Positions 6,701-63,904 of a DNA stretch of 64,000 nucleotides are shown here, piece after piece. Under the pieces are notes generated by a model, which ran no database searches, was not told the DNA's origin, and saw only the letters and a list, made by a program, of their open reading frames with translations. Made by a program: the position numbers and the translations under genes. Origin of the DNA: Winogradskyella bathintestinalis. Lineage in GTDB: Bacteria > Bacteroidota > Bacteroidia > Flavobacteriales > Flavobacteriaceae. Numbering within the stretch: position 1 is the first letter of the stretch; every line of letters begins with the position of its first letter. The DNA lies in NCBI RefSeq assembly GCF_030407435.1, contig NZ_JASDDK010000002.1, forward strand, positions 528,702 through 592,701, read 5' to 3'.

Positions 6701-9700
6701 TCATTGTAGATGCCTCCGCCACCTGCTGCGCCTGCTGTTTCAGCATCACTTCCGGAGGCTATATTGCCATCAACCGTATGGTCAACAATAGTCATTACAC
6801 CAGATCCATTCCATAATCCACCACCTTCGTTAGCAGCTGTGTTCATATTTGTTGTTCCTCCTGTAATTGTTGCATTACCTGGACCCGTGATATGTAAACC
6901 TCCACCATTTCCAGGGGCAGAAGCAGTAGAATTATTATCTAAAGTTACATTAGTTAATATTAAAGTTCCTGAGGCCATTGTAGAATTATCTTCAATGCCA
7001 CCACCAGCACGATTGGAAGTATTCCCTGTAATTACAGAGTTTAAAACAGTTACGTTACCTCCAGAAATATTTTGAATGCCTCCACCAGAACCTGAGGCTC
7101 CAGTTGCTGTATTGTTAGTAATAGCTGTGTCATTTTGAACAATTAATGTACCTCCATTGTTGAATATTCCACCACCACCGTCATCCGCTGCCGGTCCTTG
7201 TGCTTCATTTCCATTGATGGTTGTACCATTAATGGTCATAGTTCCTGTACTGTTCCACAATCCACCACCTTCTCTCGCGGCAACGTTATTGCTCATCGTT
7301 CCACCTGTAATCGTCGCAGATGCAGAACCACTAATATGTAGTGCGCCTCCATTTCCTGGATTTGCGACTGCTGGTTCAACTCCTGTGTTGTTATTGCTTA
7401 CATTAAAGTTTTCTGAAAATTCAATTGAACCTTCTATAATTTCTATGGCACCACCTGCACGATTAGATCGGTTAAACGTTATAACTGCACCTGAAATCGT
7501 TACAGCACCATCCGTACTTAAAATAGCACCACCAGATCCTGAAGCTCCGTCAGCAATATTATTTAATATTGACGCTGCGTTTCCAACAATCAATGTACCT
7601 CCATTGTTAAAGATTGCTCCCCCACCATCATCGGCATCATCACCTGAAGCTATATTACCGTCCAAAAATGATACGCTCACGTCCATGGTTCCCATATTGT
7701 TCCAGAGTCCTCCACCTTCTTTAGCAGCATAATTATTTGAAATCGTTGAAAAGTTGGAAACTGTGGCATTTGTTGTACCAGATAAGTGTATCGCACCACC
7801 ATTTCCTGGATTAGGAGTTATGGTGTTTCCTAATTCAATATCGACTCCAGCAGCATTTCCTGTAAATGTTACTCCAGATAAAATCAAAGTTCCATTTGAG
7901 CTATCTTCAATGGCTCCACCAGCCCTACTTGCGAAGTTTCCGGTGATTGCTAATCCATTAGCCAAATTTAAAGTTCCATTTTCATTATTGAAAATAGCAC
8001 CACCTCTACCACCAACATCTGTTCCGTCAGCAATATTTCCTGTTAAGGTAGTATCTTCATCTACATTTAAGATTCCACCATTATTAAAAAGTCCACCACC
8101 GCCAGTAGCATTGCCATTGGCTGTGTTTCCTGTAATAGTAGTTCCATTAATTGACATTACACCTACACTATTCCATAGTCCACCACCTTCAAAAGCCGTA
8201 TTATTGGTAACAGCTCCACCATTATAAACTACATTCCCCATTCCTGAGATATGTAAGCCACCACCATTTCCTGGTGCTGGACCGTTTACCGTATTTGAAT
8301 GTAAGGATAGATTATTAAAGGTATAAGTTTCATAAGCTGCTGAATTAATTTCGATTCCTCCACCAGCACGGTTAGCCGTATTGTTATTTATTGTTATGCC
8401 ATCGATATCAAGCGTCCCTGGTGTTAAAGAAAAGATTCCACCACCAGAACCTAATGTTCCTGAAGCCATATTATTTGAAATTGTGGTTCCTGGCATCACC
8501 ACTAAAGCACCCCCATTATTAAAGATTCCTCCACCTCCATCGTCGCTTGCTGCACCTTGTGCATCATTGCCATCTATAATCGTTCCATCTACAGTCATGC
8601 TCCCAGAACCATTCCATAGTCCACCACCTTCTCGTGCTGCTATATTATCTTTTACGGTTCCATTATTTATATAAGCATCTGCAGCACCGGTAATATGAAG
8701 TCCTCCTCCATTTCCTGGCGCTGGTCCAGTTTCATTATAGTCTAATGTAACATTAGTAAGATTTATCGTTCCTTCAATAGCTTCAATACCACCACCAGCT
8801 CTCTGTGAATTATTATAAGCTACCCATGATGAATTAATAGTTACAACTCCATTAGTACTAAAAATACCACCACCAGATCCAGATGTTCCATCAGCAGTAT
8901 TGTATAAAACTTGAGATCCACCATATAATGTTAACGTTCCTCCATTATTAAAGATTCCACCTCCACCATCATCTGCAGCATCTCCAGAAGCTGTATTGTT
9001 CTGCACAGTTGCGTTGTCAATAGTCATTACACCAGAACCATTCCATAGTCCACCACCTTCGAGTGCAGCAACGTTTCCATTTGCAGTTCCTCCAGAAATA
9101 TTAGTGTCGCCTGCACCTGTAATGTGTAAACCACCACCATTTCCTGGTGCAGCAATAGCCGGATATACCCCTGCATTATTATAATCTAGATTTACGTTAT
9201 TTAATGTAATTGCTAAACCAGCACCCGAGTTGTCTTCAATTCCACCACCTGCTCTATTTGCCGTGTTGTTAGAAATTTCAGAATCATTCACGACCAAAGT
9301 ACCACCAGCCGCATTGTAAATTCCTCCACCAGAACCAGAAGCTCCGTAGGCTATATTATTTGAAATTGTACAATTATTTATTGTAACAGCTGCATTGGTC
9401 ATATAAATACCACCACCATCTATAGCCATTCCATTAGTTAATGTTAGATAATTTAATTCTAACGAACCAGCTGTAACGTAGAATACTCTACTATTATTAT
9501 TAGCATCAATCGTAACTGAGGGACCAGTAATTGTTAATTCTTTCGTTATTAATAGTTCGCTCGTTAAAGTTACTGTTGTTACTGCAGGATCAAAAGTAAT
9601 AGTTCCTCCAGCAGGTGTGTCCGCAATTTCGTTTCGCAGAGTTCCGTCTGTTCCATCATCTGCACTACTAGTAACTACTTGTGCAAACAAATCTGTTGAA

Positions 9701-51502: not shown

Positions 51503-52351
51503 ATGAACAAACCAAAAAAATTCCCAGAACAAGATCAGGAACTTCCAGGAAAGGAACATAAAATGAACCCACAACCTGAAATTATTAGCGATGATTATCG
51601 CGGAAGTGGTAAACTTAAAGGAAAAATTGCGCTCTTAACAGGTGCAGACAGTGGCATTGGCAGAAGCGTTGCAGTACATTTTGCACGTGAGGGTGCGGAT
51701 ATTGCTATTATTTATTTATCCGAAACTAAAGATGCTGAAAAAACAAAGTCTTTAGTAGAAGCAGAAGGACAAGCGTGTTTGTTAATTAAAGCGAATCTTC
51801 AAGACACACAGCAATGCGATGACGCCCTTGAAAAATGTATTGATCAATACGGTCAATTAAATATTCTCGTTAATAATGCCGCCGTTCAATTTCCAAAAGA
51901 TTCCATTGAAGATATTGCAATGGATGATTTTGAAAAAACGTTTAAAACCAATATTTACGCCTATTTTTATATGTCTAAAATCGCGCTAAAATATCTCGAT
52001 AAGGAGGACTGTATTATAAATACTAGTTCTGTAACGGCCTATCGGGGCAGTGATCACTTAGTGGATTACGCTAGTACCAAGGGAGCCATTGTGAGTTTCA
52101 CAAGATCACTTTCTGCTCAACTAGCTAAAAAGAATATACGTGTAAACGGTGTTGCACCTGGACCAATTTGGACACCACTTATCCCAGCCTCATTTGATGA
52201 TGTTAGCGATTTTGGACAAGACACTCCGTTAGGCCGAGCTGGCCAACCCAGTGAGGTTGCGCCTGCTTATGTATTTTTAGCTTGTAAAGACAGTAGCTAT
52301 ATTACAGGTCAATTTATTCATGTTAATGGTGGAGAAATTATCGGCGGGTAA
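51503..52351 (+). CDS. Short-chain dehydrogenase, general-stress (YhdG/GSP39-like) type
   Basis: 282 residues. An N-terminal extension (PKKFPEQDQELPGKEHKM) typical of the stress-type SDRs precedes the Rossmann fold: nucleotide motif TGADSGIG (46-53), NNAA at ~124-127, and catalytic S175/S176, Y189 and K193 (YASTKGA). Oxidises or reduces an unknown alcohol/carbonyl with NAD(P). First gene of the stress-like block; a strong terminator follows ~20 bp downstream. Confidence 0.9.
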   Translation: MNKPKKFPEQDQELPGKEHKMNPQPEIISDDYRGSGKLKGKIALLTGADSGIGRSVAVHFAREGADIAIIYLSETKDAEKTKSLVEAEGQACLLIKANLQDTQQCDDALEKCIDQYGQLNILVNNAAVQFPKDSIEDIAMDDFEKTFKTNIYAYFYMSKIALKYLDKEDCIINTSSVTAYRGSDHLVDYASTKGAIVSFTRSLSAQLAKKNIRVNGVAPGPIWTPLIPASFDDVSDFGQDTPLGRAGQPSEVAPAYVFLACKDSSYITGQFIHVNGGEIIGG

Positions 52352-52361
52352 ATTTATAAGC

Positions 52362-52402
52362 CAAAAAAAATGCCAAGTTCCTAATTAGAACTTGGCACTT
52401 TA
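52362..52402 (+). terminator. Bidirectional intrinsic terminator
   Basis: 10-bp stem TGCCAAGTTC/GAACTTGGCA with a 7-nt loop, A-run on the left and T-rich right side. It lies between the SDR gene and the convergent 50-residue ORF, serving both. Confidence 0.85.
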
Positions 52403-52410
52403 AATTATTG

Positions 52411-52563
52411 TTATTCTTCTTCACTGTTGGCTTTAGGTTTCCACCCATCTTCTTGAGAATTATCTAATGGACTATGGACACTTTTACTCTCTCTGGATTT
52501 TTTAGTACTAGAATCTGGAATCTCTCTAGCCTTGTCTTTACTATCATTTGATTTTGAACTCAT
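52411..52563 (-). CDS. Small disordered acidic/basic protein (50 aa)
   Basis: 50 residues: starts MSSKSNDSKDKAREIPD and ends DGWKPKANSEEE. Rich in S, K, D and E with no hydrophobic core, so intrinsically disordered. It ends 9 bp from the shared terminator. It resembles the short hydrophilic proteins that accompany stress genes in Flavobacteriia (compare 58696-58854 and 58974-59204). Function unknown. Confidence 0.6.
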   Translation of the reverse strand: MSSKSNDSKDKAREIPDSSTKKSRESKSVHSPLDNSQEDGWKPKANSEEE

Positions 52564-52706
52564 AACTGTTAGTTTTTATTAAATTAAATCTACTATTATT
52601 AAGATAAGAATTAATTCAATCGTGATAAAAAAATTATTAAAATTTTAAGATTTTAACTATATTTTAAAGAATAACAATGACCGTTTAATCATAAAAAGAT
52701 AATACT

Positions 52707-53282
52707 ATGAGCACTATTTATGCATTACAGCTATTACTATTTGCACAAAATTCTAACAATCAACCTAGTAGTTTGTTTGATTATTCCGCGCAATCATTAA
52801 TTACAATAGTACTAACCAGTATTGGTATTTATTCCGCAATAATAATTTACACACGTATTTTTGGAAAACGGAGTTTTTCTAAAATGTCGAGTTTCGATTT
52901 TGCAATGACCGTTGCTGTAGGTTCCATTACTGCAACCACAATTTTAGCAGACGCAGTAAGTTTTTTAGAAGGAGCTTTGGGATTAGTTATGATTTATGCC
53001 CTTCAACTTATCGCTGCTTATTTTCGACGTTTCAAATGGTTTAGAAAAGTGATAGACAATCAGCCTACGCTTTTAATGGATGGTGAAGTTATTTTAACGG
53101 AAAACCTGAAAGCTGTTAGAGTCACCGAAGGTGATTTACGGTCAAAATTACGAGAGGCTAATGTTGTAAAACTTTCGGAAGTAAAGGCCGTGATATTCGA
53201 AACTACAGGCAATATGGTAGTTCTACATAATAAAAATAACGATTCTATTGATGATTGGTTACTAAAAGATGTGCAAAGATAA
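52707..53282 (+). CDS. YetF-like DUF421 membrane protein (first copy)
   Basis: 191 residues. Three hydrophobic helices (about 26-46, 58-80, 88-105) precede a small soluble domain (~110-191) with DGEVILTENLKAVRVTEGDL and EVKAVIFETTGNMVVL, the DUF421/YetF pattern. FGKRSFSKMSSFDFAMTVAVG is the family signature. YetF proteins assemble in the cytoplasmic membrane and have been linked to spore/stress physiology in Bacillus; the molecular function is unclear. A second homologue is at 55985-56503 on the other strand. Confidence 0.88.
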   Translation: MSTIYALQLLLFAQNSNNQPSSLFDYSAQSLITIVLTSIGIYSAIIIYTRIFGKRSFSKMSSFDFAMTVAVGSITATTILADAVSFLEGALGLVMIYALQLIAAYFRRFKWFRKVIDNQPTLLMDGEVILTENLKAVRVTEGDLRSKLREANVVKLSEVKAVIFETTGNMVVLHNKNNDSIDDWLLKDVQR

Positions 53283-53362
53283 ATCTTGTAATTCAAGTTT
53301 AACTCAACACATCCTGATAATTGATCAAAAATTCTGATGGCTTAAAACCCGTCTCTATAGAA

Positions 53363-53782
53363 TTAGTTCGGATTTTGCTTAGACCAATCACGGTACATGG
53401 CATATTGTGCTTCATTCAATACAGCGTTTAAGGTCGCACTGTGTTGCTCTTCCATAATTTGCTCATCCATATCTTGGTTCGGATTTTTATTCTTCCAATC
53501 ATCAACAACAGCGCGATAATCCGCAACATAGCGTTTTCTTTGCTCTTCTGTCATTCCTAAGTCATTATACATCCGTTGCGTTCTTTCATCAGAATCTGAA
53601 TTATCGTTCAAATCCCTATTCGCATTAGACGGTTTTTGGGTGTTTGACTTAGATGTTTTTATCCGAGAAGTATGATCCGAACTTTTTAATTTTTCACTTG
53701 GAATATTCCACCATTTTCTAGTTATATAAGCTATCCCTGAAGTTGCAGCAGCTACCACAAGTATTTTTCCTAATTTATTCAT
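53363..53782 (-). CDS. Membrane-anchored protein of unknown function
   Basis: 139 residues. One N-terminal hydrophobic segment (ILVVAAATSGIAYITRKWW), then a polar linker and a helical C-terminal region with MTEEQRKRYVADYRAVVDDW and LNEAQYAMYRDW. The repeated 'xxxEQxxxY' patterns recall the LTxxQ motifs of Spy/CpxP-like periplasmic chaperones, but the match is weak. Function unknown; a possible envelope-stress protein from its place in the stress block. Confidence 0.6.
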   Translation of the reverse strand: MNKLGKILVVAAATSGIAYITRKWWNIPSEKLKSSDHTSRIKTSKSNTQKPSNANRDLNDNSDSDERTQRMYNDLGMTEEQRKRYVADYRAVVDDWKNKNPNQDMDEQIMEEQHSATLNAVLNEAQYAMYRDWSKQNPN

Positions 53783-54065
53783 TGTTCAAAGTTTTTAGAT
53801 TTATACTATGCAAAAGGTAAAATTTTAAGCGCTCAATGGTGTTCTTTAATACATTTAATTTTAACTCATCTCATATTTTAATTGTTGATTCTTATCTCTT
53901 CGAACTATCCGTTATTACCACGACACACTCAGGTTTTAAATCCTAATTAAATTACTTATTTAAACTGTAATGTCATAAATTTTAGATTGTACAACTGTAA
54001 TTACCTTATTTAATTCGTAAATTGAGCACAACCCTATAGGCAACCCCCAATTTCGATACCATTTA

Positions 54066-55082
54066 ATGAAAATTTGTAAAGTAAGTTCCATACCTCTTAA
54101 AGAAGTTATTATAAGCATTGCTCAATGTTTTAATGTGGACTATCACGAAAGTTGCAGTGAATATTATTTAGAATTACCTCATACGATAGGAAAAGGCCAA
54201 ATAAGAGGTATTAATTTTGACAACGGCTTGGGCATAATAATCTACCAATGTGAATTTTATGAAGATATTAGGATTGACTTTACCGTCGACCAAATTCATC
54301 CTATCAAATACATTTATTCAGTTAACGGCCCCGTATATCACCGTTTTGCCGATGAAAAAGACACTCATGAAATTGCACAATATAAGTGTGCTATTGTGGC
54401 AAGCAATACAACTAATGGACACATCCTTTCGTTCAAAAAAAATGTAAAAACCGATATTGTCAGTTTAGAGATTAATAGAGAAATATTTCTGAAAAGTACA
54501 ATTTGTGAGATGACGGGCGTGACTGAGGATTTAAGGAAATTGTACCAAGATGTTCTTGCTGAAAATACATTTTATCATGATGGATTTTATGGTATTGAAT
54601 TCAAAACGCTACTAACGAACATATCCCAATACGAAAATCTGAAATTAGTCCGAAAATTCTATTTAGAAAGTATAGGATTGCAAATATTTGTGAATCAATT
54701 ATTGCAATTTGAGGACGACCAATTAAATGAGTCTAACAAAACAATTTTAAGAATTAATGAAATAAAGCGTATAGAAAAAACAACTTCTTACATCTCACAA
54801 AATTTAGATGAAGATTTGTCGATATCTGCGTTATCACGAGCTTCAGGATTAAATCCCAACAAACTACAGACAGGTTTCAAACATCTTTATAATTTTACAG
54901 TCAATGAATTTGTAATTAATGTAAGATTAGAAACCGCCTATCAAATCCTTCAAAATGAAGATATCAATGTTTCGGAAACCGTCTCAAGGATTGGCCTAAA
55001 AAGCTTGAGTTACTTTTCAAAAATTTTTAAAGAAAAATACCATATCAGTCCTAGCGTCTTCAAGGATCTTAATGACAGGTAG
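54066..55082 (+). CDS. AraC-family transcriptional regulator
   Basis: 338 residues. The C-terminal ~100 residues are an AraC/XylS double HTH: TTSYISQNLDEDLSISALSR, then ASGLNPNKLQTGFKHLYNFTV, and VSETVSRIGLKSLSYFSKIFKEKYHISPSVFK. The N-terminal ~230 residues form a beta-rich sensor without a recognised ligand motif, as in other Bacteroidota AraC proteins. It is not next to an obvious metabolic operon; the SemiSWEET gene is 64 bp downstream. Confidence 0.88.
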   Translation: MKICKVSSIPLKEVIISIAQCFNVDYHESCSEYYLELPHTIGKGQIRGINFDNGLGIIIYQCEFYEDIRIDFTVDQIHPIKYIYSVNGPVYHRFADEKDTHEIAQYKCAIVASNTTNGHILSFKKNVKTDIVSLEINREIFLKSTICEMTGVTEDLRKLYQDVLAENTFYHDGFYGIEFKTLLTNISQYENLKLVRKFYLESIGLQIFVNQLLQFEDDQLNESNKTILRINEIKRIEKTTSYISQNLDEDLSISALSRASGLNPNKLQTGFKHLYNFTVNEFVINVRLETAYQILQNEDINVSETVSRIGLKSLSYFSKIFKEKYHISPSVFKDLNDR

Positions 55083-55146
55083 TTTTTCAGTTAAAGAAAA
55101 TAGCTATATTGTTATTCGATGAAGTGGACTCTGCTTAAATTTAGAA

Positions 55147-55407
55147 ATGAATTTAGAAGAAATTATTGGTATAGCAGCTGGTATATTCACAACACTTGGG
55201 GTATTACCTCAAATTATTAAAGCTATTAAAACAAAAAAGGTTAAAGATGTAAGCCCTTATATGTTTGTAATACTCTGCATTGGCGTAGGGCTCTGGACCG
55301 TTTACGGTATAATGAAGCAAGATTGGCCCATAATTATCACCAATGGCATCTCTTTTCTTTTAAATGGAATTATGCTTTATATTATTATAACACAGCCAAA
55401 AGATTAA
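55147..55407 (+). CDS. SemiSWEET sugar transporter (PQ-loop)
   Basis: 86 residues with three hydrophobic helices. LEEIIGIAAGIFTTLGVLPQ contains the PQ motif, and KTKKVKDVSPYMFVILCIG and GIMKQDWPIIITNGISFLLN match SemiSWEETs, which dimerise into a six-helix sugar channel/carrier. Substrate probably a small sugar. Its stop overlaps the stop of the convergent gene (TTAA at 55404-55407). Confidence 0.88.
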   Translation: MNLEEIIGIAAGIFTTLGVLPQIIKAIKTKKVKDVSPYMFVILCIGVGLWTVYGIMKQDWPIIITNGISFLLNGIMLYIIITQPKD

Positions 55408-55985
55408 TTTTCATCGTTCATTTCTTCATTCATTTCGTCTTTCTGTTCTTCAATCTTCTCGTCAGCCTCCTCATTAGAAAGCATGGGATGGTCCTCATCT
55501 AAGCCTATGATTGCTATAAGATTAGTCACGGCATTATAGAGCATTAAAATTACACCAATCATCATTCCGCTAATTACGGAGGTCGATGCTAAAGTCACCC
55601 AATAAATCATATCGTACCATGATGTCGGAACGTTATCCGATTCTGTAATTGGTATATTAAAAAATTGAAAAATTATTAATGCAGAAATAAAAAGAATGAC
55701 ATCGAATTTGGCAATACTCAATACCTGATAATAGTGTCTTTTTTTAATGGTATTTTGTGAACTAGAACTCACACTTAATAACGTTAATAATAAAGCCAAA
55801 ATTGTAGCAGAAGCAAGTACTATAGTATTACACAACATATTTAAACCTTCTAAAGATTCTTTCAATAAGTGCTTTGCCTCATAGCCAGAAACATTTCCCA
55901 ATAGGAAAATTCCCAACCCTGTAAATAACGTTGCTAATGCTCCACCATAAATAGCATTTTTATTATTTTTTAGAAAATCTAGCAT
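55404..55985 (-). CDS. Four-TM membrane protein of unknown function
   Basis: 193 residues. About four hydrophobic helices (15-31, 52-70, 90-110, 127-150) and a charged C-terminal tail (EEADEKIEEQKDEMNEEMND). No enzyme or transporter motif seen. The start overlaps the upstream DUF421 stop by one base (TAATG at 55983-55987), so the two are translationally coupled and probably work together. Confidence 0.65.
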   Translation of the reverse strand: MLDFLKNNKNAIYGGALATLFTGLGIFLLGNVSGYEAKHLLKESLEGLNMLCNTIVLASATILALLLTLLSVSSSSQNTIKKRHYYQVLSIAKFDVILFISALIIFQFFNIPITESDNVPTSWYDMIYWVTLASTSVISGMMIGVILMLYNAVTNLIAIIGLDEDHPMLSNEEADEKIEEQKDEMNEEMNDEN

Positions 55986-56503
55986 TACTGTTTTATGTGT
56001 TGTGTATTAATATCTTTAAGTAATTGCGGCATTATACCTTTATTCTCATTATTATGAATTACAGAAACGTCTCCCGTACTTTCAAAAATCACAGCTTTGA
56101 CCTCATCAAAATGATGAACATTCGCCTCTCTTAATTTGGCTATAAGATCATCTTCACCAACATTGCATTTTTTAAGTCTATCGTATAATATCTTACCATT
56201 CCACATAATAATTTGTGGTTTATTGGTGAATAATGATTTAATAAATTCATTTTTTCGCACTAAGAATGAAAACAAGGTTTGAAACCCTATAATCGCTGTG
56301 AGGGTTATCGCACCTTTTAATAAAGTATAATCAGTATTAAGAATTATAGACGCTAAAACAGAGCCTACGGCAATTGTAGATGCAAAATCAAAACTCGACA
56401 TTTTAGCGAAAGTTCTCAAACCAAATACGCGCGTTATTATTATAATAATAGAAAAAATACCTAATACGGATAATACTAACCAAATTGAATCTTGTAAAGT
56501 CAT
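55985..56503 (-). CDS. YetF-like DUF421 membrane protein (second copy)
   Basis: 172 residues, homologous in layout to 52707-53282: FGLRTFAKMSSFDFASTIAVGSVLAS in the membrane part and KILYDRLKKCNVGEDDLIAKL, then VKAVIFESTGDVSVIHNNENKG in the soluble DUF421 part. Three N-terminal helices. It shares a one-base overlap with the following four-TM gene. The two DUF421 proteins lie ~2.7 kb apart on opposite strands; an old duplication is possible. Confidence 0.88.
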   Translation of the reverse strand: MTLQDSIWLVLSVLGIFSIIIIITRVFGLRTFAKMSSFDFASTIAVGSVLASIILNTDYTLLKGAITLTAIIGFQTLFSFLVRKNEFIKSLFTNKPQIIMWNGKILYDRLKKCNVGEDDLIAKLREANVHHFDEVKAVIFESTGDVSVIHNNENKGIMPQLLKDINTQHIKQ

Positions 56504-56717
56504 ATCAAAAAAATTTAATAGGATAAAAATAGAGCTTTATCAAAGCTTCGATTAGTGCTTATGCCCCAATTATTAACCTATTTAAATAATTAGATATCAG
56601 AACATGAAAATTATACCAAAAGCGATAAATGAAAATTTAATAGAGTTAATAAATCCCTCCTTTAGCTTGTAATTTCGTAGAGTTAGAGATAAAAACTTCT
56701 TTATATATACACACGAT

Positions 56718-57380
56718 ATGAGTACAAGCAACATAACTAGCGACGTAGAAACAGCGTACAAGAATTTTATTTTAGAAGCGAAACATCCTTGCATAATGGC
56801 TAAGACGCTATTTATGACGGACAATTATCATTTAAAAACTTATGATTCCATTACGGATGTAGAATCTTTAAAATTACTTTTAAACGACATCGCTTCCTTT
56901 TTAGATCAATACGATTTTGAATCTAACGAATTTGAGTCCCTACTGGCTGTTTTTCCTAATAATCATTTTGAAACTGAAATTGATTTTGAAAAAGCACTAT
57001 GGAAAGCGCTTCAACGACTGCACGACATGGATGATTCCGAATGGGATACAACTGTGAGCAAAAATCCAGAAGATTCTAATTTTAGCTTCAGCCTAAAAGG
57101 AAAAGCCTTTTATATTGTTGGTCTACATCCTAACAGCTCTAGAATAGCACGTCAAAGTCCATATACCACTATTGTTTTTAATTTACATTGGCAATTTGAG
57201 AAACTACGGGAAATGGGAACCTATAAAAAAGTTAAAAAGAGAATCCGTAAACGCGATAAAAAACTGCAAGGTCATATTAACCCTATGCTTAAAGATTTCA
57301 GAAAAGATTCTGAAGTTAAACAGTATAGTGGCAGAAATTTAGACAACCAGTGGAAATGTCCTTTTCACTCTAAATCTTAA
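56718..57380 (+). CDS. GntA-family (YqcI/YcgG) heme-dependent N-hydroxylase
   Basis: 220 residues, cytoplasmic. It matches the YqcI/YcgG family: FPNNHFETEIDFEKALWKAL, KGKAFYIVGLHPNSSRIARQ, YTTIVFNLHWQFEKLREMG and NQWKCPFHS. Characterised relatives are GntA (heme-dependent N-hydroxylase of pre-guanitoxin) and the related DcsA, which hydroxylates L-arginine; both act on guanidino nitrogens. An equivalent reaction on a guanidino compound is inferred here. The DUF1989 gene follows 5 bp later. Confidence 0.82.
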   Translation: MSTSNITSDVETAYKNFILEAKHPCIMAKTLFMTDNYHLKTYDSITDVESLKLLLNDIASFLDQYDFESNEFESLLAVFPNNHFETEIDFEKALWKALQRLHDMDDSEWDTTVSKNPEDSNFSFSLKGKAFYIVGLHPNSSRIARQSPYTTIVFNLHWQFEKLREMGTYKKVKKRIRKRDKKLQGHINPMLKDFRKDSEVKQYSGRNLDNQWKCPFHSKS

Positions 57381-57385
57381 CATCC

Positions 57386-57973
57386 ATGAAAACAAAACAT
57401 GTTATAGATACACAAAGCGGTAAAGCATTTGAGCTCAAAAAAGGAGACACCTTAACCGTTATTGATCCATTAGGACAACAAGTAAGCGATATGGTGCTTT
57501 TTAACCGTAAGGATTTTAATGAAAAATTGTCCTCGGGTAAATCTTTAGATTTTGAAGAATCCATATTATTAACCAAAGGAAATCATCTATGGAGCAATCG
57601 TTCTAATCAGATGGTTAAGATTATTGAAGACACTAATGGCAGAAATGACTTTTTGTTAGCTCCCTGCAGCAAAGAGACCTTTAAAATTATGTACAATTAC
57701 GAAGGTTACCACCCAAGCTGTTTAGAAAATTTATATACCAACTTAGAACCGTTTGGATTGTCTATAGACGATATCCCTACGGCATTCAATATTTTTATGA
57801 ATGTACAGTTCGATAAAGATGGGAAACTCTCCGTTTTACCTCCGACTTCAAAACCGGGTGATTCTATAAAATTTTTGGCTCAAATGGATTTATTAGTTTG
57901 TCTCACTGCTTGCTCTGCTGAGGATAGTAATGGAGGCTCATTTAAACCCATTCATTTTATAATTAACGCTTAA
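57386..57973 (+). CDS. DUF1989 (urea carboxylase-associated) family protein
   Basis: 195 residues, cytoplasmic. Family features: GKAFELKKGDTLTVIDPLGQQ, SDMVLFNRKD, LLAPCSKETFKIMYN, YHPSCLENL, DDIPTAFNIFMNVQ and LVCLTACSAEDSNGGSFKP. Characterised DUF1989 pairs (CgdA/CgdB) deiminate carboxyguanidine in bacterial guanidine degradation, usually beside a urea/guanidine carboxylase. Only one DUF1989 gene is present here and no carboxylase, so the pathway differs. 5-bp gap from the GntA-like gene. Confidence 0.82.
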   Translation: MKTKHVIDTQSGKAFELKKGDTLTVIDPLGQQVSDMVLFNRKDFNEKLSSGKSLDFEESILLTKGNHLWSNRSNQMVKIIEDTNGRNDFLLAPCSKETFKIMYNYEGYHPSCLENLYTNLEPFGLSIDDIPTAFNIFMNVQFDKDGKLSVLPPTSKPGDSIKFLAQMDLLVCLTACSAEDSNGGSFKPIHFIINA

Positions 57974-58190
57974 TATGAAACCTATAATGCCCAACATTAA
58001 TTGTTAATAATATTCGAATCTACCTTTATAATCCATTCTTAGGTCAAATTATCTATTCTATATTACTCTCATTAAAATCTACAAATTAAAAATGGTTTGA
58101 GTCAATTTAAATTGTCTTTGCGATATTAAGAACGCTTTTCAATAGTTATTTTTAGTTACAATTAGTAATTAATTAAAATCCAAAAAAAAT

Positions 58191-58673
58191 ATGAAAGACT
58201 TAAAATCATTATTCGAACACCAATTAAAAGATTTATATAGCGCAGAAAGCCAACTTGTTGAGGCACTTCCTAAAATGGTTAAAAATGCATCTGATTCTGA
58301 TTTGAAAAAATCGTTTGAAGACCATCTAAAAGAAACCAAAGAACATAAATCACGATTAGAAGAAATTTGCGAGAAATTAGATATTAAGCCAGGCGGTGAA
58401 AAATGTAAAGCTATGGAAGGACTCATTAAGGAGGCTGAAGGTTTTATTAAAGAAGCCGATAATGACGACATAATGAATGTTGGCTTAATCGCAGAAGCGC
58501 AACGTGTAGAACATTATGAAATTTCAGGTTACGGAACGGCGGTTAGGTTTGCCAAAGAACTAGGATATGATGATATCGCTTCAAAATTGCAGAAAACCTT
58601 AGATGAAGAATATGATGCAGATAACAAGTTAGATAAACTTGCGCAGAACCGATTGAACAAAAAAGCCAAATAA
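58191..58673 (+). CDS. DUF892 ferritin-like (YciE/YciF) protein
   Basis: 160 residues, all-helical. FEHQLKDLYSAESQLVEALP, EDHLKETKEHKSRLEEICEK, GLIAEAQRVEHYEISGYGTA and DEEYDADNKL supply the E, H and D residues of the di-iron ferritin-like fold of the DUF892 family. E. coli YciE/YciF belong to the RpoS stress regulon. A small disordered protein follows 22 bp downstream. Confidence 0.93.
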   Translation: MKDLKSLFEHQLKDLYSAESQLVEALPKMVKNASDSDLKKSFEDHLKETKEHKSRLEEICEKLDIKPGGEKCKAMEGLIKEAEGFIKEADNDDIMNVGLIAEAQRVEHYEISGYGTAVRFAKELGYDDIASKLQKTLDEEYDADNKLDKLAQNRLNKKAK

Positions 58674-58695
58674 GTTTAACCAAAAAATTCAAAAG

Positions 58696-58854
58696 ATGTC
58701 AAAAGATAGAGAAAATCCGAAAACAGATCATGAAAAGACGCTTTATCAAAATGCTACCGACGAGAAGGGTGCTCAGAAAACAGAGCATTACAATCAATAC
58801 GGTAAAAAAGATGATGATGATCGTAAGGTGAGAAAATCAAAGAAAGATAATTAA
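58696..58854 (+). CDS. Small disordered highly charged protein (52 aa)
   Basis: ATG 22 bp after the DUF892 stop. 52 residues (starts MSKDRENPKTDHEKTLYQ, ends DDDDRKVRKSKKDN), rich in K, D, E, N and Q with no hydrophobic core. Probably cotranscribed with the DUF892 gene. Function unknown. Confidence 0.6.
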   Translation: MSKDRENPKTDHEKTLYQNATDEKGAQKTEHYNQYGKKDDDDRKVRKSKKDN

Positions 58855-58973
58855 TTCTCATAATTCTTTCACCAATCGATTTAGAATATAGACGGAGTAA
58901 TTTATAAAGTATTGTTTTTATATCATTTGTAAATTCTAAAGGTGCCTTATTGTAGAACTAAAAACTTAAAATT

Positions 58974-59204
58974 ATGAGTAACGAAAAAAAACATGCTGAT
59001 TTTCAAGATAATTATAGAAAATCATCAAATTTCAATAAACAAACTAAAGATGTTAATTTGGAGACCGATGGAAAAGGAAATCTAAAAAAGACGACTAAAA
59101 TTAATGAACTTTCAGATTCAGAAAAAAATAAAATCGCGGATTCTATGGATAAGATGCAACGAAATATCGAAATGATTCCCGATGGTAATTCTGAAGAAGA
59201 ATAG
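58974..59204 (+). CDS. Small hydrophilic protein (76 aa)
   Basis: 76 residues (begins MSNEKKHADFQDNYRKSSNF, ends NIEMIPDGNSEEE). Very polar, with a likely C-terminal helix (INELSDSEKNKIADSMDKMQ). No recognised domain. Ends just before a perfect 46-nt palindromic terminator. Function unknown; typical companion of the stress genes around it. Confidence 0.6.
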   Translation: MSNEKKHADFQDNYRKSSNFNKQTKDVNLETDGKGNLKKTTKINELSDSEKNKIADSMDKMQRNIEMIPDGNSEEE

Positions 59205-59517
59205 TTAAATGCACATAGAAACGTTAAAAACCAATTCAATTGAATTGGTTTTTAACGTTTCTTAAGTTTCTTAAATTCAGATATTGAGAAAAACATTTCA
59301 ACACCTTAAGAAGAATCATTTTTACTGAATTTTTCTTCTAAGAATGCCCTTTATAAATTAGAAAACAACTAAAATTAATGAAAACATTTCAGACTTAGTT
59401 TAGCGATACAGTTATAATTAAAAGTATTTGTGCTAAAGTATATCATTAAATATTAAGAATTTAGTGATCAAAATTTTCAATTTTGAAAAGTCAATTTCAA
59501 CTTCATAATTATTAACC
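59205..59517. other. 313-bp spacer upstream of the catalase gene
   Basis: Contains the palindromic terminator 59217-59262. The rest is AT-rich, with no clear promoter octamer matching TAnnTTTG. Confidence 0.5.
59217..59262 (+). terminator. Perfect 46-nt palindromic terminator
   Basis: The sequence reads the same on both strands: AGAAACGTTAAAAACC at the left end mirrors the right end, with AATT at the centre. As RNA it forms a hairpin of up to 21 bp. It lies 13 bp after the small hydrophilic gene and is symmetric, so it could stop transcription from either side. Confidence 0.8.
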
Positions 59518-61650
59518 ATGGCAAAAAAGAACAATTCAGAAAGTAAGAAAACGAAAGACCTTAAGCAATTTGAAAAAGATGCTAAAGACAAGGTAATGAC
59601 CACTAACCAAGGTTTAAAAATCAATGACACCAACAATTCCCTAAAATCGGGAGAACGAGGATCTACCCTATTAGAAGACTTTTTGTTGAGGGAAAAAATC
59701 ACCCACTTTGATCACGAACGTATTCCAGAACGCATTGTTCATGCCAGAGGAAGCGCAGCACATGGCTATTTTGAATTGTATGACAGTATTGAAAAATATA
59801 GTAAAGCCGGTATTTTTACAGATACCAATAGAAAGACACCTGTATTTGCTAGATTTTCCACGGTTGCTGGCTCAAAGGGTTCGCCAGATCTAGCCAGGGA
59901 TGTTCGTGGTTTCGCCGTAAAATTTTATACAGAAGAAGGCACATGGGATTTGGTGGGCAATAATATGCCTATTTTTTTCATTCAAGATGCTATGAAGTTT
60001 CCAGATTTAATCCATGCGGTTAAGCCAGAACCTAATAATGAAATTCCTCAAGCGGCTTCGGCTCACGATACATTCTACGATTTTATTTCCCGAACCACAG
60101 AAACACTTCATAATCATATCTGGGCCATGAGCGACAGAGCCATACCTCGCAGTTTACGTATGATGGAAGGTTTTGGTATTCATACATTTAGATTAATTAA
60201 TTCTAAAAATGAATCGCATTTTGTGAAATTCCATTGGAAACCTAAATTAGGAGCACATTCAGTGACTTGGGATGAAGCCGTAAAAATTAATGGTGCAGAT
60301 GCCGATTTTCATCGACGTGATTTATGGGAAGCAATTGAAGCTGGTCAGTTTCCAGAGTGGGAATTAGGCATTCAGGTCGTAGCAGAAGAAGATGAACATA
60401 AATTTGATTTCGATTTATTAGATCCTACTAAACTAATTCCTGAAGAAATGGTTCCTGTAGAGATTATTGGTAAAATGACGTTAAATAAAAATCCAGAAAA
60501 TTTCTTTGCAGAAACTGAGCAAGTTGCATTTTTGCCGGGACATATTGTTCCTGGTATTGATTTTACAAACGATCCATTGTTGCAAGGTCGATTATTTTCG
60601 TATCGTGATACTCAATTATCAAGATTAGGTAGTCCTAATTTTCATCAAATCCCAATCAATCGTCCAATTACTAATACACATAATAATCAGCGTGACGGAC
60701 ATATGCAAATGGATATTCCTAAAGGACAAACTGCTTATTTTCCAAATTCTTTGGGTGGCGGTTGTCCTCATTTAGCTAAAATGTCTGAAGGAGCCTTTCA
60801 TTCTTATGAAGAGCGCATTGATGCCAAAAAAATAAGAACACGTAGCGAGAGCTTTAGTGATCACTATTCGCAACCTGCATTATTTTACAGAAGTCTGGCT
60901 GACTGGGAGAAAGAACACGTTGCAGATGCCTATACTTTTGAGTTAGGAAAATGTACCCACAAATCCATTAAAGAGCGCATGTTGTATCAAATTGCTCAAA
61001 TTGATAGTGATTTAGCCAAGAAAGTCGCCAAAGGTTTAGGTCTTAATGTTCCTGAAAATATTGAGCAACCGGTTAACCAAGCCATCGGTGCTGACGATAA
61101 TTCTGGTAAACAGCAACCACCAAAAAAGAAAAATTATTTAGAACGTGACAATGCTTTAAGTCAGGCGCACACAAAATTTGATTCTATCGCAACAAGGCAA
61201 ATTGCCGTGCTAGTGGCGGAAGGGTTCTCGATGAGCGATTATAAATCAATGAAAAAAGCGTTAGAAGCCGGGGATGCTATGGTAAAATTAATTGCACCAC
61301 ACGGAGGCACCGTTAAATGTGATGAAAATATGGATCACGATGTCGATGCTTCTATTATGACTACAGAAAGTGTTTTATTTGATGCTATTTATATACCTGG
61401 TGGGCAGCAATCAATTGATAAGTTGAAAGATGAACCTAAGTATAAAAAGTTTATTAATGAAGCTTTTAAGCACTGCAAAGCCATAGCTGTAGCTAATGAA
61501 GGTGAACATTTAATTGATGACACCTTTGTGGGCGATTATAAGGATGATAAAGCCATCTTTATTAATGCGAAGCCTGAAGCATTTATTGATGCCATAGCTA
61601 AACATCGCAATTGGGAACGGATGCCAATAGCAGCTAAAGTACCAGCATAG
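59518..61650 (+). CDS. katE: Large-subunit catalase (KatE/HPII type)
   Basis: 710 residues, cytoplasmic heme enzyme that dismutates H2O2. N-terminal basic arm, then the catalase barrel: distal H75 in VHARGSAAHG, RFSTVAGSKGSPDLARDVRG, distal Asn near residue 148 in VGNNMPIFFIQD, and proximal tyrosine Y362 in RLFSYRDTQLSRLG. The C-terminal ~150 residues (RQIAVLVAEGFSMSDYKSM, PGGQQSIDKL) form the flavodoxin/GATase-1-like domain of clade 2 catalases. Intact. Preceded by 313 bp of spacer; the antiporter gene starts 25 bp downstream, so they may be cotranscribed. Confidence 0.97.
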   Translation: MAKKNNSESKKTKDLKQFEKDAKDKVMTTNQGLKINDTNNSLKSGERGSTLLEDFLLREKITHFDHERIPERIVHARGSAAHGYFELYDSIEKYSKAGIFTDTNRKTPVFARFSTVAGSKGSPDLARDVRGFAVKFYTEEGTWDLVGNNMPIFFIQDAMKFPDLIHAVKPEPNNEIPQAASAHDTFYDFISRTTETLHNHIWAMSDRAIPRSLRMMEGFGIHTFRLINSKNESHFVKFHWKPKLGAHSVTWDEAVKINGADADFHRRDLWEAIEAGQFPEWELGIQVVAEEDEHKFDFDLLDPTKLIPEEMVPVEIIGKMTLNKNPENFFAETEQVAFLPGHIVPGIDFTNDPLLQGRLFSYRDTQLSRLGSPNFHQIPINRPITNTHNNQRDGHMQMDIPKGQTAYFPNSLGGGCPHLAKMSEGAFHSYEERIDAKKIRTRSESFSDHYSQPALFYRSLADWEKEHVADAYTFELGKCTHKSIKERMLYQIAQIDSDLAKKVAKGLGLNVPENIEQPVNQAIGADDNSGKQQPPKKKNYLERDNALSQAHTKFDSIATRQIAVLVAEGFSMSDYKSMKKALEAGDAMVKLIAPHGGTVKCDENMDHDVDASIMTTESVLFDAIYIPGGQQSIDKLKDEPKYKKFINEAFKHCKAIAVANEGEHLIDDTFVGDYKDDKAIFINAKPEAFIDAIAKHRNWERMPIAAKVPA

Positions 61651-61674
61651 ATTTTTAATACTTAAAAAGGCACT

Positions 61675-62904
61675 GTGAATAGATACTATATTGTACTATT
61701 AATATTAGGTATAACCTCACTTCTAGCGAGTTTTTTACCTATTCTAATAAAGAAATTTAAATTCAGTTTTACAATACCATTATTAATTTTTGGTGCCTTT
61801 CTCTATTATATTAATATGCCATTGCCGTGGCCTAATCCGGTATGGGAAATTGATTTAACCTTACGGTTCTCAGAATTAGTGGTTATCATTAGCCTTATGG
61901 TGGCTGGCTTAAAAATTGGGCTTAACTACTCTTGGAAAGAGTGGCAGAATCCAATTCGATTATTAAGTATAACGATGCCTTTATTTATGGGGGTTGTTTT
62001 CTTAATATCCCATTACTTATTAAATTTTAACGGTCCAATTTCTTTACTTCTCGCTGCAGTTTTGGCACCTACAGATCCTGCTTTAGCGTCTGAAATTCAA
62101 CTGAACAAAAAGCAGTCCGTCGAATCTAAGAATGTTGGCATTCAGTATAATTTAACTGCTGAGGCCGGATTGAATGACGGCTTGGCATTTCCTTTCGTGT
62201 TTTTAGCAATTTTATGGTCTAAGCAAAATGCATTAGGAGTTGAGGAATGGAAAGAATGGCTAAGTTATTATGTACTCTATAAAGTAGCTATCGGGACTTT
62301 AATTGGAGCGGTCATAGGGTTTTGTTATAGCTATTTTACCAAAAAATTATCAAATAATTATGAGCGTAAAATACATCAAGCTTTTGTGGCACTTTCTTTA
62401 ACATTTATCTCTTACGGATTAGCTGAAATGCTCAATTCGTATGGCTTTTTGAGTGTATTTTTTACTGGTCTATTTGCCAATTACCATAAACATACTAAAG
62501 ATATAAAAACAGAAAGTGATCCAAATTTAGATTTTATAACCAATACGGAGAAATTTTTAATTACGTTTTGGATGATTTTCTTCGGTGGCTCCGTTATGGC
62601 TGGAATATTAAATTTTATAACCTTGCCGACATTTATCTTTGCCTGTTTTTTGGTTCTAATTGCTAGACCTCTATTAGGATACATCAGCTTGAAAAGAACA
62701 GGACTGGATAAAGGAAAACGATTAGCTATATCATTTTTGGGAATTAGAGGTATCGGCTCTGTTTTTTATCTCACTTACGCCATTAAGCATGGACAGTTTA
62801 ATGATTTAAACCACATTTTTTCAATCGTGGCGTTAGTCATTTTAATTTCCATTTTAATACATGGATTTTCAGCAAAACGAATTATGAAAACTTTTGAAAA
62901 ATAA
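61675..62904 (+). CDS. Na+/H+ (cation:proton) antiporter, CPA1 family
   Basis: 409 residues from a GTG start. About 12 hydrophobic segments. The second helix cluster has LAAVLAPTDPALASEIQ with the conserved TDP, and NLTAEAGLNDGLAFPFVF contains the acidic ND of the CPA1 ion site. GNQNIRG-like segment LGIRGIGSVFYLTYA lies near the C-terminus. It exchanges Na+ (or K+) for protons across the inner membrane. 25 bp after katE; convergent with the topoisomerase gene. Confidence 0.9.
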   Translation: MNRYYIVLLILGITSLLASFLPILIKKFKFSFTIPLLIFGAFLYYINMPLPWPNPVWEIDLTLRFSELVVIISLMVAGLKIGLNYSWKEWQNPIRLLSITMPLFMGVVFLISHYLLNFNGPISLLLAAVLAPTDPALASEIQLNKKQSVESKNVGIQYNLTAEAGLNDGLAFPFVFLAILWSKQNALGVEEWKEWLSYYVLYKVAIGTLIGAVIGFCYSYFTKKLSNNYERKIHQAFVALSLTFISYGLAEMLNSYGFLSVFFTGLFANYHKHTKDIKTESDPNLDFITNTEKFLITFWMIFFGGSVMAGILNFITLPTFIFACFLVLIARPLLGYISLKRTGLDKGKRLAISFLGIRGIGSVFYLTYAIKHGQFNDLNHIFSIVALVILISILIHGFSAKRIMKTFEK

Positions 62905-62917
62905 GGTTTCCTTTCAT

Positions 62918-63904
62918 CTAATTCAATTTCTTTTTTAGCATACACAACACACCAATTTCTTCTCGCGAAAGATTTTCATTCACCTTTAAAAGTCGTGAAA
63001 TCTCCTTTTGAAAATAATTAATGGTTTTGCCATCTATATATTCATCTATTACGCGCGGATCAATGTAAGAACTACGGGCAACCGATGGAGTATTTCCTAG
63101 TCTTTCGCTCACCTTAATTACGGCCTCACGAATATTATTATCTAATTCTTTTTGATCTTGTTCTTTAGACAAACCAATTTCGTCTAATGCCAACGCTGCA
63201 ATTACAGTTCCTGCCCATGTTCTAAAATCCTTGGTAGAAAATTCTTCTCCCATAATTTCTTTAATGTAGTTATTAAGATGATCACTTTTCACATCATGCT
63301 TTACTCCTGCTTCATCTATAAACTTAAATATTTCATAACCAGGCAAATCATCTATTTCCTTTACTATTTTGGCTAACTTCTTATCAACAATATGACGCTC
63401 TTGTGCCTTTCCAGATTTTCCCTTGTAACTAAATACGAGTTCCTCACCTTCAATCTGCAAATGTTTACTTCTCATTGTGGTTAGGCCATAACTACTATTC
63501 TCTTTAGCGTAATAGTCATTACCTGGCCGAAAATAAGCCGCCTCTAAAAGACGTACCATACAGGCCAATACTTTCTCTTTAGATAATTTTCGTTTTCTAA
63601 GGTGTTGCCCTGTAACTCGCCTCATATGTTCTATATTATCGGCAAATTTAACAATGCGGTCAAATTTTTCTTGATTCTGCTTTTCTCTAAATTTAGGGTT
63701 ATAGATATACTGTTTGCGATTTTTATCATCACGACCTACCACTAATATTTTAGCATTTTTTTTGGCACTAATCTCTACATCGGTCCACGCTGGTGGAATA
63801 ACTAGAGATTTAAACCACAATTTTAATTTTTTGTCTTTTATGGTTTGATTAGAGTCATCGACATAGCGAAAGCCTCTTCCATGTTTTCTACGGTAATACA
63901 TCAT
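62918..63904 (-). CDS. DNA topoisomerase IB (eukaryotic/poxvirus-like)
   Basis: 328 residues. N-terminal domain (GRGFRYVDDSNQTIKDKK, IPPAWTDVEISAKKNAKI), then the catalytic domain with FRPGNDYYAKENSSYGLTTM, the RKR-containing GQHLRKRKLSKEK region, KDFRTWAGTV and catalytic tyrosine Y280 in VARSSYIDPRV. Relaxes supercoils by a 3'-phosphotyrosine intermediate. Type IB enzymes are scattered among bacteria and often sit with stress genes. Convergent with the antiporter gene (13-bp gap). Confidence 0.95.
   Translation of the reverse strand: MMYYRRKHGRGFRYVDDSNQTIKDKKLKLWFKSLVIPPAWTDVEISAKKNAKILVVGRDDKNRKQYIYNPKFREKQNQEKFDRIVKFADNIEHMRRVTGQHLRKRKLSKEKVLACMVRLLEAAYFRPGNDYYAKENSSYGLTTMRSKHLQIEGEELVFSYKGKSGKAQERHIVDKKLAKIVKEIDDLPGYEIFKFIDEAGVKHDVKSDHLNNYIKEIMGEEFSTKDFRTWAGTVIAALALDEIGLSKEQDQKELDNNIREAVIKVSERLGNTPSVARSSYIDPRVIDEYIDGKTINYFQKEISRLLKVNENLSREEIGVLCMLKKKLN

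Follow-up and report, generated by a model that had tools for sequence, protein, structure and literature searches.

The window, by which we mean the whole 64 kb stretch of DNA that was analysed, contains a YqcI/YcgG-family gene at 56718-57380 and a DUF1989 (YcgI-type) gene at 57386-57973, both on the forward strand and encoding proteins of 220 and 195 aa, respectively. The genes were delimited as open reading frames and are separated by 5 nt (57381-57385, +), as an earlier, sequence-only reading of this DNA had noted. That reading had assigned the products to the GntA-type heme N-hydroxylases and to DUF1989, and both assignments are borne out by profile scores. The first product matches Pfam YqcI_YcgG (PF08892) with 211 bits against a cut-off of 27 and NCBIfam GntA (NF041366) with 298 bits against a cut-off of 145, and the second matches Pfam DUF1989 (PF09347) with 186.5 bits against a cut-off of 27. 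A profile search of the source genome (3.83 Mb, 35 contigs) gave one DUF1989 match, so that the protein is indeed alone in its genome, and no urea or guanidine carboxylase above cut-off. No guanidine riboswitch was found in a gathering-level RNA scan of the 64 kb, which matched one tRNA only, nor in a permissive scan of 55000-58500, which gave a single sub-threshold match to a plant snoRNA. The reported lack of a carboxylase and of a riboswitch thus stands. Bacillus subtilis presumably has the genes in a ycgG-ycgH-ycgI neighbourhood, in keeping with the names YcgG and YcgI that are given to the two families and with the matches of both Pfam families in this species.

The pair is located in a block (51503-63904) that encodes two DUF421/YetF membrane proteins, a SemiSWEET transporter, a short-chain dehydrogenase, a DUF892 protein, a long catalase, a cation:proton antiporter and an AraC-type regulator; a topoisomerase IB gene closes the block, and its gene order is shuffled between Flavobacteriaceae genomes. 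Recurrent neighbours are the two DUF421/YetF genes (55985-56503, -, and 52707-53282, +), both in Flavobacteriaceae, and the genes for SemiSWEET (55147-55407, +), DUF892 (58191-58673, +) and the short-chain dehydrogenase (51503-52351, +). The earlier description of these surroundings as stress-like was supported by a comparison in Flavobacteriaceae. At least one of nine block query proteins (two DUF421/YetF, SemiSWEET, short-chain dehydrogenase, DUF892, catalase, antiporter and two small membrane proteins) was found in 18 of 20 regions of 16-17 kb around the pair, against 0 of 20 control regions, placed at positions of our choice, one in each of these genomes (Fisher p = 2e-9). Outside Bacteroidota, matches to block proteins are sporadic, as in Sphingobium sp. 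RAC03, where YetF and cation:proton antiporter genes precede the pair. This indicates that the pair is the unit and that the block is mainly the habit of one lineage. The claim that no transporter accompanies the pair stood only in part, since SemiSWEET and the antiporter are nearby, but neither is a constant partner outside Flavobacteriaceae.

Clustering of neighbours, which relied on a crude ORF picker (of 91 loci, it detected YqcI in 72 and DUF1989 in 60), identified no third gene that recurs at a rate like that of the pair. A cluster of 17 loci coincides in position with the pair itself and resembles antisense ORFs; the largest of the others comprises 10 loci. A PaiB-like (FMN_bind_2) gene is inserted between the two genes in 4/20 Flavobacteriaceae regions and 7/80 named loci (L049, L053, L055, L060, L120, L129, L134, L154, L155, L157 and L159, L055 and L129 being from the same genome), assigned by Pfam for one insert and by clustering or sequence similarity for the others. 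In L058 and L126 the inserted gene encodes an MgtC-type membrane protein, as determined by Pfam on the L126 copy, and an equally long insert is present in L127.

The YqcI/YcgG and DUF1989 genes form a conserved two-gene unit. The less biased counts come from three surveys of genomes, rather than from the 80-locus scan described further on. Among 199 Flavobacteriaceae genomes screened with Pfam profiles, YqcI was found in 24 (25 copies) and DUF1989 in 23, which corresponds to 22 genomes with both, two with YqcI only (G145 and G175), one with DUF1989 only (G025, a weaker match of 89 bits) and 174 with neither (Fisher p = 6e-26, uncorrected for relatedness). In all 22 the genes are adjacent on the same strand and YqcI comes first. 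A Bacteroidota sample of 296 genomes, which shares four paired genomes with the former set, contains YqcI in seven and DUF1989 in eight genomes. All seven YqcI genomes are paired, and the eighth DUF1989 genome (G344) has tandem DUF1989 genes no more than 2 kb away from a urea/guanidine carboxylase gene. The adjacency is, hence, conserved in Bacteroidota, which is the check that the sequence-only reading had proposed. In the Nitrospira family (147 genomes) YqcI occurs in 17 genomes (20 copies) and DUF1989 in 15; a lone DUF1989, which here means non-tandem and scored by Pfam instead of a pair-specific profile, is present in 14 of the 17 YqcI genomes and in none without YqcI, while G555 has DUF1989 of the tandem type only, beside a carboxylase. 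DUF1989 immediately follows 13 of the 20 YqcI copies. As for the others, the order is reversed in G585, with YqcI some 690 nt downstream of DUF1989; the genes are in different parts of the genome in G489 and G591, which together with G487 make three Nitrospira genomes with unlinked genes; the copies of G627 and G490 are at a contig end; and the copy of G491 and the second one of G621 have no DUF1989 nearby.

A one-genome-per-species scan with a YqcI alignment identified at least 565 relatives, of which the best 80 of 565 were used. Its patterns were made from 17 sequences, namely 12 paired ones (the window and 11 plasmid loci), an unpaired one from Rahnella and four of unchecked context, and given these mostly paired queries and the retention of the best 80, the scan favours paired members. 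DUF1989 is downstream of YqcI on the same strand in 71 of these 80 best-matching loci. YqcI is upstream in 71/71, L147 having an additional DUF1989 upstream, and no YqcI-DUF1989 fusion occurs in the 71. According to record titles the pair is found in ten phyla (Acidobacteriota, Eremiobacterota, Actinomycetota, Pseudomonadota, Bacteroidota, Armatimonadota, Planctomycetota, Gemmatimonadota, Nitrospirota and Verrucomicrobiota), several of which are represented by MAG contigs alone, and a pair on a plasmid of Deinococcus ficus adds an eleventh, Deinococcota. Gene order is thus near-fixed over many phyla, and the pairing is not confined to a few unrelated genomes, the outcome that the earlier reading had named as speaking against it. 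For 64 of the 71 pairs the gap could be classed: 37 overlap, 15 are 0-30 nt apart, six 31-200 nt and six more, so that 52/64 have no gap larger than 30 nt, where it should be considered that classing by the start codon nearest the upstream stop favours small gaps.

The nine unpaired loci (L106, L111, L113, L131, L137, L138, L163, L169 and L173) have no DUF1989, the contig of L163 ending 60 nt past YqcI. Six of their genomes, several of which are draft MAGs, lack any DUF1989, which suggests that YqcI can act alone or with another partner; in two Nitrospira genomes DUF1989 is on a different contig, and the remaining genome carries it in a second, paired locus. In L147 (Cesiribacter sp. SM1) the order is DUF1989, YqcI, DUF1989 and a divergent YqcI-like gene that lacks the heme Cys motif, an arrangement that resembles a duplicated unit with one decayed copy.

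The pair is also carried by plasmids. Of 23 plasmid records with YqcI, 14 have an adjoining DUF1989, one of these next to a YqcI fragment, and nine have no DUF1989 among the matches listed. The best 14 of 60 listed plasmid DUF1989 matches (49.7-78.8% identity) are exactly the YqcI-paired records, the other 46 listed having at most 35% identity (60 listed of 477 records). In the 11 annotated plasmid loci the genes overlap or are a few nt apart, save in one with an unannotated second gene, and the remaining neighbours vary between plasmids. On the Hymenobacter volaticus plasmid (L091, approximately 7000-7570) the DUF1989 partner is unannotated and matches in two pieces, due to either a frameshift or a sequencing error. 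The Rahnella sikkimica plasmid (L093, 6944-12229) carries a GntA-like gene without partner, after which six genes run in the same direction (SDR, hypothetical, 2Fe-2S, LysE-type exporter, PheRS-beta-like and MOSC); the whole resembles a separate small biosynthetic cluster. Two other plasmid contexts of DUF1989 appear uncharacterised, one in Salipiger sp. (L190), where the gene touches an arginase-family gene beside an amino acid ABC transporter, the other in Rhodococcus qingshengii (L188), where it touches an APC permease gene.

For analysis of residues the collected pairs were reduced from 102 to 99 distinct ones, as L118, L129 and L145 were already in the Flavobacteriaceae set. The distance matrices of the two proteins correlate (r = 0.71, with species relatedness left in), and none of 1000 permutations exceeded 0.11.

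The AglA paper gives Cys44 as heme ligand and Arg166, Lys196 and Arg200 as propionate partners (PMC12866846). Alignment to AglA chains puts these at Cys25, the candidate heme ligand, which is kept in 99/99 distinct pairs, and at the candidate propionate residues Arg145 (99/99), Lys173 (Lys or Arg in 78/99) and Arg177 (92/99). Candidate pocket residues, obtained from the same alignment, are Tyr132, Asn155, His157 and Phe160. AglA Phe152 corresponds to Phe or Tyr132 in 98/99 and Phe182 to Phe160 in 99/99 pairs, whereas Gln177 is replaced by Asn155 in 99/99 and Arg179 by His157 in 96/99, which suggests the substrate may differ from arginine derivatives. The protein from the window deviates at a single site, Arg195, where 97/99 pairs have Gly. 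Its predicted structure (pLDDT 90) has AglA (9ubb) as best structural match with a TM score of 0.80, and combines AglA's sandwich fold with, by alignment, the Cys ligand and the basic propionate residues. The first protein is predicted to be a thiolate-heme N-hydroxylase on the basis of sequence, model and analogy. Six bacterial YqcI-family members have been characterized, with hydroxylation of arginine derivatives (PMC12866846), and ChmN yields hydroxyarginines and dihydroxyarginine (PMC10849742). The GntA model NF041366 matches all 86 of 86 YqcI relatives scanned at E 0.001, which makes the guanitoxin GntA label too broad to discriminate. No guanitoxin gene cluster is present among the named neighbours in the window and the 11 paired plasmid loci, the plasmid gene tables being incomplete. 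Many public genomes carry the toxin-biosynthesis label via NF041366, unsupported by gene context.

A DUF1989 domain occurs in trimethylamine N-oxide demethylase (Tdm) as well, a point missing from the sequence-only reading. Tdm has Zn cysteines 263, 279 and 343 and Asp198 in its DUF1989 domain, as described in the Tdm paper, in which the proposed Fe site is also within this domain and the location of the active site is left open (PMC12560246). With a 22-residue offset between the numbering of the paper and of the PDB, which is our reading of the alignment, the cysteines correspond to Cys94, Cys112 and Cys176, conserved in 99, 99 and 98 of the 99 distinct pairs; the single exception is a frameshifted copy that lacks the Cys176 equivalent. 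These three, which were also aligned with structure 3oru, are the candidate Zn ligands. Further metal-site candidates, by Tdm alignment and conservation, are Asp35 (Tdm Asp198, 99/99) and His109 (Tdm His276, 86/99, with Arg in eight and Val in three pairs), and the equivalent of Tdm Asp346 is variable. The predicted model (pLDDT 96) superposes on DUF1989 structure 3siy with a TM score of 0.94, and Tdm was not among the best 50 matches of the structure search. Family score, predicted fold and the three Zn-type cysteines thus all place the protein in DUF1989, and it is predicted to be a Zn enzyme. The loss of heme or metal residues, which the earlier reading had regarded as decisive against its proposal, is not what these alignments display.

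The paired DUF1989 proteins form a single clade with a FastTree support of 0.92 and an IQ-TREE support of 91, in the latter case with one archaeal outsider (Halalkalicoccus) inside, in a tree of 105 paired-type rows, duplicate genomes included, and only 12 outside DUF1989 sequences. This bears on deiminase chemistry, which the sequence-only reading had taken from the carboxyguanidine deiminase CgdA/B: the family membership holds, but since the paired proteins form a clade apart from the CgdA/CgdB type, the chemistry is an analogy. The paired protein misses both UAAP cut-offs (119.3 against 284.7 and 82.5 against 205.95 bits; TIGR03424/TIGR03425). CgdAB consists of two DUF1989 subunits and the source genome encodes one. 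A urea or guanidine carboxylase above cut-off is found in 0/22 pair-positive Flavobacteriaceae genomes, as compared with 5/5 genomes that were picked for tandem DUF1989 genes, in which one is within 2 kb of the tandem. Three of these five (G566, G621 and G628) also carry the pair, hence the two systems are separate. Pantoea UAAP1 lacks all three Zn-type cysteines and UAAP2 has them, which is consistent with one inactive CgdAB subunit as described in PMC11271267. The CgdAB guanidine carboxylase pathway was, given the missed cut-offs, the lone subunit and the missing carboxylase, rejected, and the pair likely belongs to a pathway other than known guanidine degradation.

How, then, might the two proteins work together? 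We tentatively favour a sequence in which the YcgG-type heme protein would N-hydroxylate a guanidino nitrogen of a small molecule, after which the YcgI-type Zn protein would hydrolyse the C-N bond at the carbon of the resulting N-hydroxyguanidine, a reading based on analogy to which we give somewhat less than an even chance. Heme binding and O2-dependent N-hydroxylation are predicted by analogy with AglA, GntA and ChmN. Zn binding and hydrolysis are likely in analogy to carboxyguanidine deiminase, which gives the highest score among the DUF1989 families whose function is known. The order from heme enzyme to DUF1989 is the one we infer, L-arginine or a similar guanidino acid would be our first guess as substrate, and the products would be a ureido or hydroxyureido compound with ammonia or hydroxylamine. 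Arginine and free guanidine, the examples given in the sequence-only reading, are putative substrates. As the unit encodes no reductase, electrons probably come from shared cell reductases; one candidate for passing them to the heme enzyme is the FMN-binding, PaiB-like protein that some Flavobacteriaceae encode between the pair. The position in a stress-type block in Flavobacteriaceae would fit a role in protection or detoxification better than one in nutrition.

The main chemical rival to hydrolysis is an N-O-dependent cleavage as in Tdm, i.e. an oxidative N-dealkylation in which the heme enzyme would make an N-O group that DUF1989 would use to cleave an N-C bond. The Tdm Zn cysteines and proposed Fe site both sit in its DUF1989 domain (PMC12560246), the paired protein keeps the three cysteines as well as the Asp198 equivalent in 99/99 pairs, and the preceding enzyme belongs to a family that installs N-O groups (PMC12866846). 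Against this, the pair is devoid of Tdm's extra DUF1989-like and GcvT-like domains, the paired DUF1989 reaches 119 bits with UAAP2 as compared with 74 bits with the Tdm model, and the equivalents of the Fe ligands vary, Asp346 being unconserved and His276 lost in 13/99 pairs. We consider this rival unlikely.

A reversed order, in which DUF1989 would first free or prepare a substrate with a guanidino or amidine group, to be hydroxylated afterwards by the heme enzyme to a final product such as a small metal chelator or an inhibitor, is in keeping with the natural-product pathways that known YqcI members serve and with the arginase-family, amidase or permease genes that adjoin some plasmid DUF1989 genes. 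We deem it doubtful, given that no biosynthetic gene recurs beside the pair in the neighbour clustering and that YqcI is the upstream gene in all 71 paired loci, although gene order is weak evidence for reaction order.

It appears quite improbable that, in bacteria lacking NO synthase, the pair converts arginine to NO, HNO or hydroxylamine. NO synthase, too, begins by N-hydroxylating arginine with a thiolate heme. One could envisage a P450-like thiolate-heme protein that makes N-hydroxyarginine and a metal-dependent DUF1989 enzyme that splits it into NO, HNO or hydroxylamine, the two forming a module for stress or signalling in at least 11 phyla, a picture to which we would assign only a small chance. 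It would agree with the location of the pair in a stress-type block and with the NO synthase domain PF02898 occurring in 0/44 Flavobacteriaceae genomes, the source genome included; this count, however, does not discriminate, as the domain is lacking from the 22 genomes with and the 22 without the pair alike. The neighbour clustering identified no recurrent NO-related neighbour, and we know of no DUF1989 enzyme that acts on N-hydroxyarginine. As a co-occurring partner the arginase superfamily was discarded, since it is present in all 44 of these genomes and hence uninformative.

Nitrogen assimilation, with guanidine or arginine degraded by the pair as N source, has in its favour a likely guanidino substrate and the part that carboxyguanidine deiminase, a DUF1989 enzyme, plays in guanidine assimilation. 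It is nevertheless improbable, since the unit comes without guanidine transporter, carboxylase, urease or riboswitch, and three genomes with tandem DUF1989 and carboxylase carry the pair separately. That the proteins are merely co-regulated members of the stress block without a shared pathway, as the other block members in 18/20 Flavobacteriaceae pair regions might suggest, is very improbable, because the two genes are still found side by side in phyla that have no such block or only sporadic members of it.

We found no description of a YqcI/YcgG/GntA and DUF1989 pairing in the literature searched, from which subscription papers and outside preprints were excluded, and none of the listed papers that matched at least two search terms brings a term for the first family together with one for the second. 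The passages searched in three YqcI papers do not mention a urea-associated or deiminase partner, and for ycgG/ycgH/ycgI only an unrelated E. coli paper was retrieved. Both families have been characterized in other settings, i.e. antibiotic or toxin biosynthesis and guanidine assimilation; here one subfamily of each forms a stand-alone and widely conserved pair that is also plasmid-borne. The surveys indicate that the database names, guanitoxin biosynthesis and urea-carboxylase associated, mislead for this pair. It offers a ready two-protein system for reconstitution, and would connect the N-hydroxylation of guanidino groups with metabolism or stress in settings other than antibiotic clusters. 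If true, the formation of reactive nitrogen would be a second, NO-synthase-independent bacterial route from arginine.

When compared with known systems, the paired DUF1989 protein resembles CgdA and CgdB in fold and, as regards the Zn-type cysteines, the UAAP2 subunit. It differs in being single, without a UAAP1-like partner, in scoring below the UAAP cut-offs, in the lack of a genomic carboxylase and in its separate clade. With Tdm it shares the DUF1989 domain, the three Zn-type cysteines and the Asp35 equivalent, but at 195 aa it is a one-domain protein, whereas Tdm has a DUF1989 and a GcvT-like domain in one chain as well as a second DUF1989-like domain, and Tdm's proposed Fe ligands are partly unconserved. 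The D-cycloserine system of DcsA and DcsB has a YqcI-type arginine hydroxylase, DcsA, in common with the pair. DcsB is reportedly a metal hydrolase that cleaves the hydroxyguanidine after DcsA in D-cycloserine biosynthesis, and is an arginase-type enzyme, not DUF1989. The heme protein, finally, is like AglA, GntA, ChmN and DcsA in fold, in the position of the Cys heme ligand and of the propionate-binding Arg and in its predicted N-hydroxylation, and is set apart from them by a location outside any biosynthetic cluster, by Asn155 and His157 in place of AglA Gln177 and Arg179, and by DUF1989 as its partner.
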